Positions 2,572 through 2,677 of a stretch of 64,000 bases of DNA are shown piece by piece; positions within the stretch are counted from its first letter, which is position 1; each line of letters begins with the position of its first letter. The notes beneath the pieces were generated by a model that did no database searches, was not told the DNA's origin, and saw only the letters and a program-made list of their open reading frames with translations. The DNA is from Geobacteraceae bacterium GWC2_53_11 (GTDB taxonomy: Bacteria; Desulfobacterota; Desulfuromonadia; Geobacterales; Pseudopelobacteraceae), in contig MGZJ01000010.1 in assembly GCA_001802645.1 (NCBI GenBank), positions 43,203 through 107,202 of the forward strand. The letters are read 5' to 3'. The position numbers and the translations under genes were made by a program.

Positions 2572-2606
2572 AAAGGCGCCCCGGTATTACGGAGGCGCCT
2601 TTGCCT
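2572..2606 (-). promoter_or_regulatory. nifH leader: terminator hairpin overlapped by a hexaloop antiterminator candidate
   Basis: In the roughly 140-nt leader between the sigma-54 promoter and nifH, the minus strand forms a 9-bp stem (AAAGGCGCC at 2602-2594, GGCGCCTTT at 2580-2572) followed by a T-rich tract, as in an intrinsic terminator. Its 5' arm is also part of a competing small hairpin, AGGC-[AAAGGC]-GCCT (2606-2593), whose six-base loop has A at position 1 and G at position 4, as in RNA targets of ANTAR antiterminators. The two structures exclude each other. Geobacter sulfurreducens controls nif genes by an ANTAR response regulator (GnfR); applying that here is inference. I did not find a convincing first hexaloop hairpin upstream. 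Confidence 0.65.
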
Positions 2607-2662
2607 GAACTTACGTATAATTTTGTTTATTTCGTACTTCGTGTCGTTTGATTCAGATTAAA

Positions 2663-2677
2663 GCATAGGGTGTGCCA
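2663..2677 (-). promoter_or_regulatory. Sigma-54 promoter of nifH
   Basis: Read on the minus strand the site is TGGCAC-ACCCT-ATGC, with GG and GC exactly 10 nt apart; it fits the -24/-12 consensus except for one base of the -12 box. The transcription start is predicted near 2651. An inverted repeat ATAACA-GCT-TGTTAT lies just upstream at 2696-2710 and could be an activator site. The remaining sequence up to 2821 shows nothing else I can name. Confidence 0.8.

Follow-up and report, generated by a model that had tools for sequence, protein, structure and literature searches.

A predicted nifH attenuator with a single ANTAR-type hexaloop, shared across one family of its order

The window (the whole stretch of DNA analysed, 64,000 nucleotides) carries nifH and nifD at its left end, preceded by a leader with the following elements:

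2660 to 2678, minus strand: sigma-54-like promoter TTGGCACACCCTATGCTTT (GG-N10-GC), by sequence, with a predicted start at about 2651
2617 to 2630, minus strand: weak, non-canonical predicted hairpin AUAA[ACAAAA]UUAU at the place expected for an upstream hairpin (P1), judged not to be P1
2593 to 2606, minus strand: hairpin P2, AGGC[AAAGGC]GCCT, with an ANTAR-type hexaloop (A1, G4), the proposed antiterminator, by folding and conservation
2570 to 2602, minus strand: intrinsic terminator, by folding, its 5′ arm shared with P2 and its U-tract at 2574-2570
2561 to 2565, minus strand: GCCCC past the U-tract, able to pair with the terminator 3′ arm, a candidate third hairpin (65 of 81 nifH leaders)
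2526 to 2543, minus strand: hairpin GCTCAC[GGATGG]GTGAGC directly before the ribosome site, seen across nifH leaders
2518 to 2524, minus strand: nifH ribosome site, by sequence, with the nifH ATG at 2510
1641 to 2510, minus strand: nifH (NCBIfam TIGR01287, 469 bits, cut-off 394)
12 to 1457, minus strand: nifD, downstream of nifH on the same strand (NCBIfam TIGR01282, 781 bits, cut-off 654)

The preliminary description of this DNA had placed an attenuator between a sigma-54 promoter and nifH, and this structure is confirmed: the sigma-54-like site, P2, the terminator, the ribosome site and the ATG are all located, in that order, on the minus strand. By sequence reading, the promoter element TTGGCACACCCTATGCT has its GG at 2676-2675 and its GC at 2664-2663 (minus strand). 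The terminator arms, AAAGGCGCC...GGCGCCTTT, span 2602-2572 on the minus strand, and the hairpin with its T-rich tail folds at -20.6 kcal/mol (z -3.9), a stability equalled by none of 200 shuffles. Since the 5′ arm AAAGGCGCC (2602-2594) is made up of the P2 loop and the P2 3′ arm, P2 and the terminator cannot coexist; the mutual exclusion claimed earlier holds, as does the A1/G4 reading of the loop, which is conserved in relatives. Among four stretches of the leader that were folded, P2 appears in the minimum-energy structure of the one omitting the terminator 3′ arm, and this modelled fold is what a co-transcriptional switch would need. Rfam 15 gave no match above the gathering score in the 64,000-nt window. 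A leader peptide was considered and rejected, as by eye there is no ATG between the predicted start and the terminator. By ORF reading, molybdate-transport-like genes (modCBA; 8400-10931, minus strand) lie near nifHD on the same strand, and a type I restriction-modification-like operon (13757-20466, minus strand) contains an extra, shorter specificity-subunit-like ORF (19837-20466).

Antitermination by GnfK/GnfR was reportedly proposed for the nif genes of Geobacter sulfurreducens by Ueki and Lovley in 2010. In this system a sigma-54 promoter is followed by a terminator at nif genes, and the regulator is a receiver-ANTAR protein. According to PMC7962754, gnfR is GSU2822 and gnfK is GSU0941. 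The genome from which the window comes (4.28 Mb, 91 contigs, 96.5% complete) contains exactly one ANTAR domain in a genome-wide search (71.6 bits, cut-off 27.3). It belongs to a GnfR-like protein of 188 residues, receiver plus ANTAR, encoded 1.8 kb past the window's right end by a gene that adjoins draG and then nifB; this nifB scores 324.5 bits, slightly below the model cut-off of 343.65, because the model's C-terminal part is absent from the protein. Immediately before the ANTAR gene lies the sigma-54-like site TGGCACGCCTCATGCTA, a promoter by sequence only. Likeness to the GnfK/GnfR system thus extends to a receiver-ANTAR protein, itself behind a sigma-54-like site, and to a terminator between a sigma-54-like promoter and the nif gene in five leaders of this genome.

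How far P2 and the terminator are conserved across the order was assessed in leaders each made up of the 400 nt that precede the best match to nifH (90 genomes) or nifB (89 genomes); nifH was matched in 120 and nifB in 124 of 138 genomes, and the nifB of G100, at a contig end, was left out before counting. Families within the order are labelled f1 to f4, and the window's genome belongs to f1. Of the 90 nifH leaders, 86 hold a strict P2, defined as GGCAANGNNGCC, among them that of the window's genome (f1 50/52, f2 4/4, f3 6/6, f4 26/28), and of the 89 nifB leaders 74 do so (f1 53/55, f2 0/2, f3 4/8, f4 17/24), with looser P2s in some of the f2 to f4 leaders scored as misses. These are the unbiased figures; the located leaders were themselves found with GGCAANGNNGCC, and the invariance of those letters among them is therefore built in. 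A GG-N10-GC site, P2 and a T-run occur together in 81 of 90 nifH and 73 of 89 nifB leaders, a few f3 and f4 nifB sites being weak; the 9 nifH and 16 nifB leaders without a strict P2, T-run or GG-N10-GC site were left out. Most nifB leaders build their terminator from other letters (for example GCCCGC...GCGGGC), and in most of them the GGC arm and loop of P2 lie outside the terminator and are still kept (strict P2 in 53/55 of f1). In f1 nifH, 47 of 49 leaders form the fourth P2 pair, the one beyond GGC/GCC (AT 27, CG 14, GT 5, TA 1), against a permutation mean of 27.1 and a highest value of 39 in 5000, statistics that ignore the relatedness of the sequences. Only 2 of 24 f4 nifH leaders form this pair, and there is no covariation at this pair in f1 nifB (14/52, permutations 11.1). 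Both A1/G4 and the alternative pairing are thus conserved when the nifH leaders of relatives are compared, the check on which the earlier reading had been staked. By eye, the f4 nifB leaders of G024, G026, G051, G054 and G065 carry two P2-like elements and terminators in tandem.

The nifH leaders contain further complementary segments. Past the U-tract, the exact complement of the terminator 3′ arm, counted with Watson-Crick pairs only, would be expected in 7.4 of the 81 leaders from shuffled tails. GCCCC in the window (2561-2565) complements GGGG of the terminator 3′ arm, G119 offers a compensated case (GAGG/CCTC), and the complement is absent in nine of nine f4 leaders with GGAG terminator arms. 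From this pattern it is possible that a third hairpin captures the terminator arm once polymerase reads through. A hexaloop hairpin is also seen within the final 60 nt of 61 of 90 nifH leaders (13.5 in shuffles); its stem varies with compensation (for example GCTCAC/GTGAGC, GTCCAC/GTGGAC, GGCCAC/GTGGCC and GCTTGC/GCAAGC), and it ends 13-16 nt before the ATG in 58 of the 61. ACGGA and AAAGGAG near the nifH ribosome site are reminiscent of CsrA sites, but the loop starts with AGA rather than GGA in 16 of the 61 hairpins.

Within the window's own genome, the 12-letter P2 string GGCAAHGDNGCC is by itself unspecific: it occurs 104 times (reversed pattern, 57), and 6 of its places lie in the window, where 0.63 would be expected. 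When GGCAANGNNGCC must be followed by TTTT within 14-44 nt, the genome yields 31 matches, which fall at 21 distinct places; the reversed control yields 12. At five of these 21, the upstream 100 nt contain a GG-N10-GC site with a score of 9-13 out of 13, the sigma-54-like site being absent or scoring 6 or less at the remaining 16. P2 at these five also overlaps a terminator stem, which has 6-16 pairs when G-U pairs are counted. The genes behind them are nifH, nifE(N), nifB, nifV and nifX; the second of these is above the nifE cut-off and also matches the fused NifEN model across 494 residues. The terminator-stem filter is weak by itself, because it passes six of the 21 places where shuffles give 3.2. 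The sixth place (10527-10538, plus strand), antisense within the modA-like ORF and without a sigma-54-like site, was rejected. The combination of P2, terminator and promoter selects five nif leaders and none other of the 21 places, in support of the earlier reading. One of these leaders, that of nifV, also lies in the window:

55802 to 55813, minus strand: P2 of the nifV leader, GGC[AACGAC]GCC, followed by its own terminator, by pattern, stem and promoter checks
54613 to 55755, minus strand: nifV, homocitrate synthase (NCBIfam TIGR02660, 519 bits, cut-off 463)

Its sigma-54-like site (GG 55851-55850, GC 55839-55838) is the weakest promoter match of the five, and its predicted start, at about 55826, lies about 13 nt before P2, so that a P1 would have no room. 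The genome holds a second nifH copy, 93% identical, at G000:C25:43956-44816.

This check of 21 places took the place of ANTAR/nif co-occurrence, which we dropped as evidence. An ANTAR match is found in 129 of 141 genomes of the order, usually one per genome (f1 70/76), and a table assembled by hand over 138 genomes shows nifH or nifB together with ANTAR in 125, neither in 5, nif only in 5 and ANTAR only in 3 (p 3.3e-5). All five genomes with neither are, however, 70-88% complete, and co-occurrence is poor evidence because its signal rests on incomplete genomes. Among better-complete genomes, nif occurs without ANTAR in G068, G011 and G012, and ANTAR without nifH or nifB in G099 and G140. In G011 and G012 (f3, 100% and 99% complete), neither an ANTAR domain at E 0.001 nor nifH at E 1e-120 is matched; by eye, G011 has dual-hexaloop-like leaders nonetheless, for example at G011:C5:169472.

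By published description, a canonical ANTAR target consists of two hexaloop hairpins joined by a short linker (PMC3369931, PMC8934654), a requirement that the preliminary description overlooked. We searched for the upstream hairpin, P1, from the predicted start to P2, as a hexaloop with a purine at position 1 and G4 on a stem of at least 4 pairs. P1 is present in 24 of 24 f4 nifH leaders (0.9 in shuffles) and in 10 of 17 f4 nifB leaders. Among f1 nifH leaders it was found in 2 of 49 (0.9 in shuffles), and among f1 nifB leaders in 1 of 52; the predicted start leaves fewer than 18 nt ahead of P2 in 42 of these 52, so that P1 has no room. The picture in f2 and f3 is thin and mixed (nifH 1/2 and 2/6, or 2/2 and 4/6 with 3-pair stems; f3 nifB 1/4). 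No P1 was found in the own genome's five nif leaders, nor above chance in f1 upstream of the predicted start, in the 60 nt before P2 (nifH 1/49, shuffles 0.6; nifB 2/52, shuffles 1.0).

Pairing in P1 reaches 98.6% across 23 f4 segments, and 17 cells are compensatory against a shuffled mean of 5.0. These segments served to train a dual-hexaloop covariance model, R1, whose f4 scores are therefore partly by construction: 22 of 28 f4 nifH leaders score 38.5-48.9 bits, and those outside the training set (L255, L258, L263, L362, L364, L371 and L373) score 38.5-46.7 bits, some of them being near-identical to training members. Among f1 leaders the highest score is 26.0 bits, and 7 of 52 f1 nifH leaders reach 20-26 bits. 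The covariance search suggested earlier did not recover the window's leader as a canonical ANTAR target (15.8 bits with R1, E 0.067 in 204 kb), and the best R1 match anywhere in its genome, at 24.9 bits, lies outside the five leaders. Over whole genomes, searched with stricter filters at E <=1e-4 and with the genomes lacking a match named in part, R1 matches 45 of 138 (f4 42/48, f3 3/13, f2 0/4, f1 0/73). As none of the 73 f1 genomes is found, a dual-hairpin covariance model can miss a family's nif attenuators.

Beyond the four families, Desulfuromonadales-type nifH leaders, chosen among 80 named loci, have a P1-like hairpin before P2 in 6 of 9 cases, three of the six with 3-pair stems only and all counted without a shuffle control; R1 matches 6 of 21 named loci at E <=0.1. 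Given P1 in both f4 and Desulfuromonadales-type leaders, the dual hexaloop is likely ancestral, with P1 lost in f1. The loss may be one event, in which case the f1 leaders would not be independent.

With the upstream hexaloop missing in the window and in f1, the leader is not a canonical ANTAR target. What stands of the earlier view of an ANTAR-type leader is the A1/G4 hexaloop overlapping the terminator; the second, upstream hexaloop is absent, here as in f1. The proposal of an ANTAR/GnfR-type regulator fares similarly, gaining from the one ANTAR protein beside draG and nifB and losing from a leader that is not a canonical target. The leader resembles an ANTAR target in its predicted working, yet fails the two-hairpin definition, like the f1 leaders examined.

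Comparison with known systems brings this out. Ramesh et al. (2012, PMC3369931) predicted ANTAR target RNAs in three nif transcription units of Pelobacter carbinolicus; those were found by a dual-hairpin model, whereas the window's leader is without the upstream hairpin. Geobacter proper we place in f4 by inference, and f4 has dual hexaloops where the window's f1 has one. The eut leaders of Enterococcus faecalis share an A1/G4 hexaloop overlapping the terminator 5′ arm (PMC3369931, PMC8934654), but EutV, as described in PMC8934654, requires P1, the proposed recruitment hairpin, and there is none here. Among actinobacterial and mycobacterial ANTAR RNAs, many reach over the start codon or the ribosome site and are believed to work on translation, and few lie at a terminator (PMC8164766); they too are hexaloop hairpins near genes, but the window's hairpin competes with a terminator. 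The 2022 paper on the EutV-RNA structure redefines the minimal motif as one hexaloop and expects single hexaloops in settings not paced by polymerase; it also asks why there are two hairpins if a dimer can hold one only, and states that more bioinformatic and experimental work on single hexaloops is needed (PMC8934654). ANTAR antitermination of nif genes is already in print, and in the open-licence literature we found no report of single-hexaloop ANTAR attenuators.

The ANTAR protein was compared with EutV by alignment to 6wsh, using the contacts given in PMC8934654 and an inferred numbering offset of two. EutV contacts the hexaloop through R142, K143, K147, K149, E160, Y164, R168, M172, N173, R175 and R177, with Tyr164 stacking on loop G4 (PMC8934654). 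Eight of these 11 residues are identical in the window genome's protein, R168, N173 and R177 being replaced by Q, D and S. In the 41 proteins compared (41 of 50 ANTAR loci yielded a protein, and the remaining 9 were left out), residue 168 is Q and residue 173 is D throughout, and residue 177 is S, T or N. Residue 164 is Tyr in all 19 f1 proteins and Phe in all 22 from f3 (5) and f4 (17), the f4 set including none from the large f4 genus g21. This split fits a change of the protein along with its RNA; it is a single lineage split and could be drift.

We think that a single-hexaloop ANTAR attenuator probably controls the nifH leader in f1, as a lineage-wide variant. What we observe are the sequences, their conservation, the absence of P1 and the sole ANTAR protein; from these we infer GnfR binding to P2, phosphorylation, termination, antitermination and the direction of change. 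Under nitrogen shortage, sigma-54 polymerase would start at the nif promoter and at the ANTAR gene. By default, the nascent leader would form the terminator, and transcription would end ahead of nifH. With nitrogen scarce, the GnfR-like regulator, presumably phosphorylated by a GnfK-like kinase, would bind the P2 hexaloop as it emerges, and a P2 so held would keep its 3′ arm out of the terminator, allowing nifHD and the following genes to be read. All this would happen without the upstream recruitment hairpin, which f1 seems to have dropped without giving up the protein, P2 or the terminator. EutV requires both hexaloops in vivo and a lengthened linker abolishes antitermination (PMC3369931, PMC8934654), so a leader without P1 might not respond. 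For EutV, P1 is proposed to recruit the dimer so that transfer to P2 comes in time (PMC8934654). Leaders in f1 would need another timing solution, such as the emergence of the nifB P2 near the 5′ end or the longer P2 stem of nifH. We lean, with some reserve, towards a fuller version for the whole of f1 (73 genomes searched): its ANTAR attenuators would be P1-less, with a GnfR dimer catching the single hexaloop on the nascent RNA, the nifB P2 lying about 4-14 nt from the predicted 5′ end (42/52), and nifH aided by the covarying fourth pair; the G4-stacking residue is Tyr in the f1 proteins compared and Phe in those from the dual-hexaloop families.

Other explanations were weighed against this one. 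Regulation of the attenuator by non-ANTAR means, be it another RNA-binding protein, Rho/NusG effects or polymerase speed, would go well with the missing P1, with five nif-bearing genomes that give no ANTAR match (two of them 99-100% complete) and with a co-occurrence that is uninformative once incomplete genomes are set aside. We nevertheless consider it unlikely: the nifB GGC arm and loop are kept though mostly outside the terminator, the sole ANTAR gene sits beside draG and nifB behind a sigma-54-like site, and the same genes in f4 carry textbook dual ANTAR targets.

It is quite improbable that the leader is a canonical dual-hexaloop target whose P1 has drifted past recognition, for example into AUAA[ACAAAA]UUAU. 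This hairpin (2630-2617) has A1 and stands 10 nt before P2, a spacing within the 5-12 nt of eut linkers, and a drifted P1 could also account for the 7 of 52 f1 nifH leaders at 20-26 bits with the dual model; but the hairpin lacks the G4 on which EutV Tyr164 stacks, the fold of the stretch containing it and P2 is no more stable than expected by chance, being equalled by 29 of 200 shuffles, and by eye the hairpin is not conserved, being missing from the closest relatives. A disguised P1 was also sought and rejected more broadly, with stem lengths of 3, 4 and 5, with R1G4 or A1G4 loops and with any hexaloop, against mono- and dinucleotide shuffles, as well as by RNAalifold, per-sequence folding z and the covariance model. 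A hexaloop of any sequence on a stem of at least 5 occurs in 1 of 49 f1 nifH leaders against 2.8 in shuffles. RNAalifold gives the P1 hairpin from 24 f4 nifH stretches and no consensus structure from 49 f1 stretches, and the mean folding z of the nifH stretch before P2 is +0.26 in f1 versus -1.50 in f4. In the nifB and nifV leaders of the window's own genome there is no room for P1 in any guise. A plain, unregulated 5′ terminator with P2 as a by-product of the GGCGCC palindrome is scarcely credible, since the 104 genomic copies of the 12-letter string and a nifH terminator arm that supplies part of P2 for free, because it contains AAAGGCGCC, are set against a GGC arm kept outside the terminator, a covarying fourth pair in f1 nifH, an unchanged P2 beside most nifB terminators with other arms, and the selection of nif genes by P2 string, T-run and promoter.

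With single-hexaloop ANTAR control as the preferred reading, f1 and f4 form a natural experiment: they share genes, promoter type, P2, terminator and ANTAR protein and differ in having one hexaloop or two. The contrast makes the question of why EutV needs two hairpins directly testable. If the reading is true, P1 would be a dispensable recruitment device, separate from the antitermination step itself.
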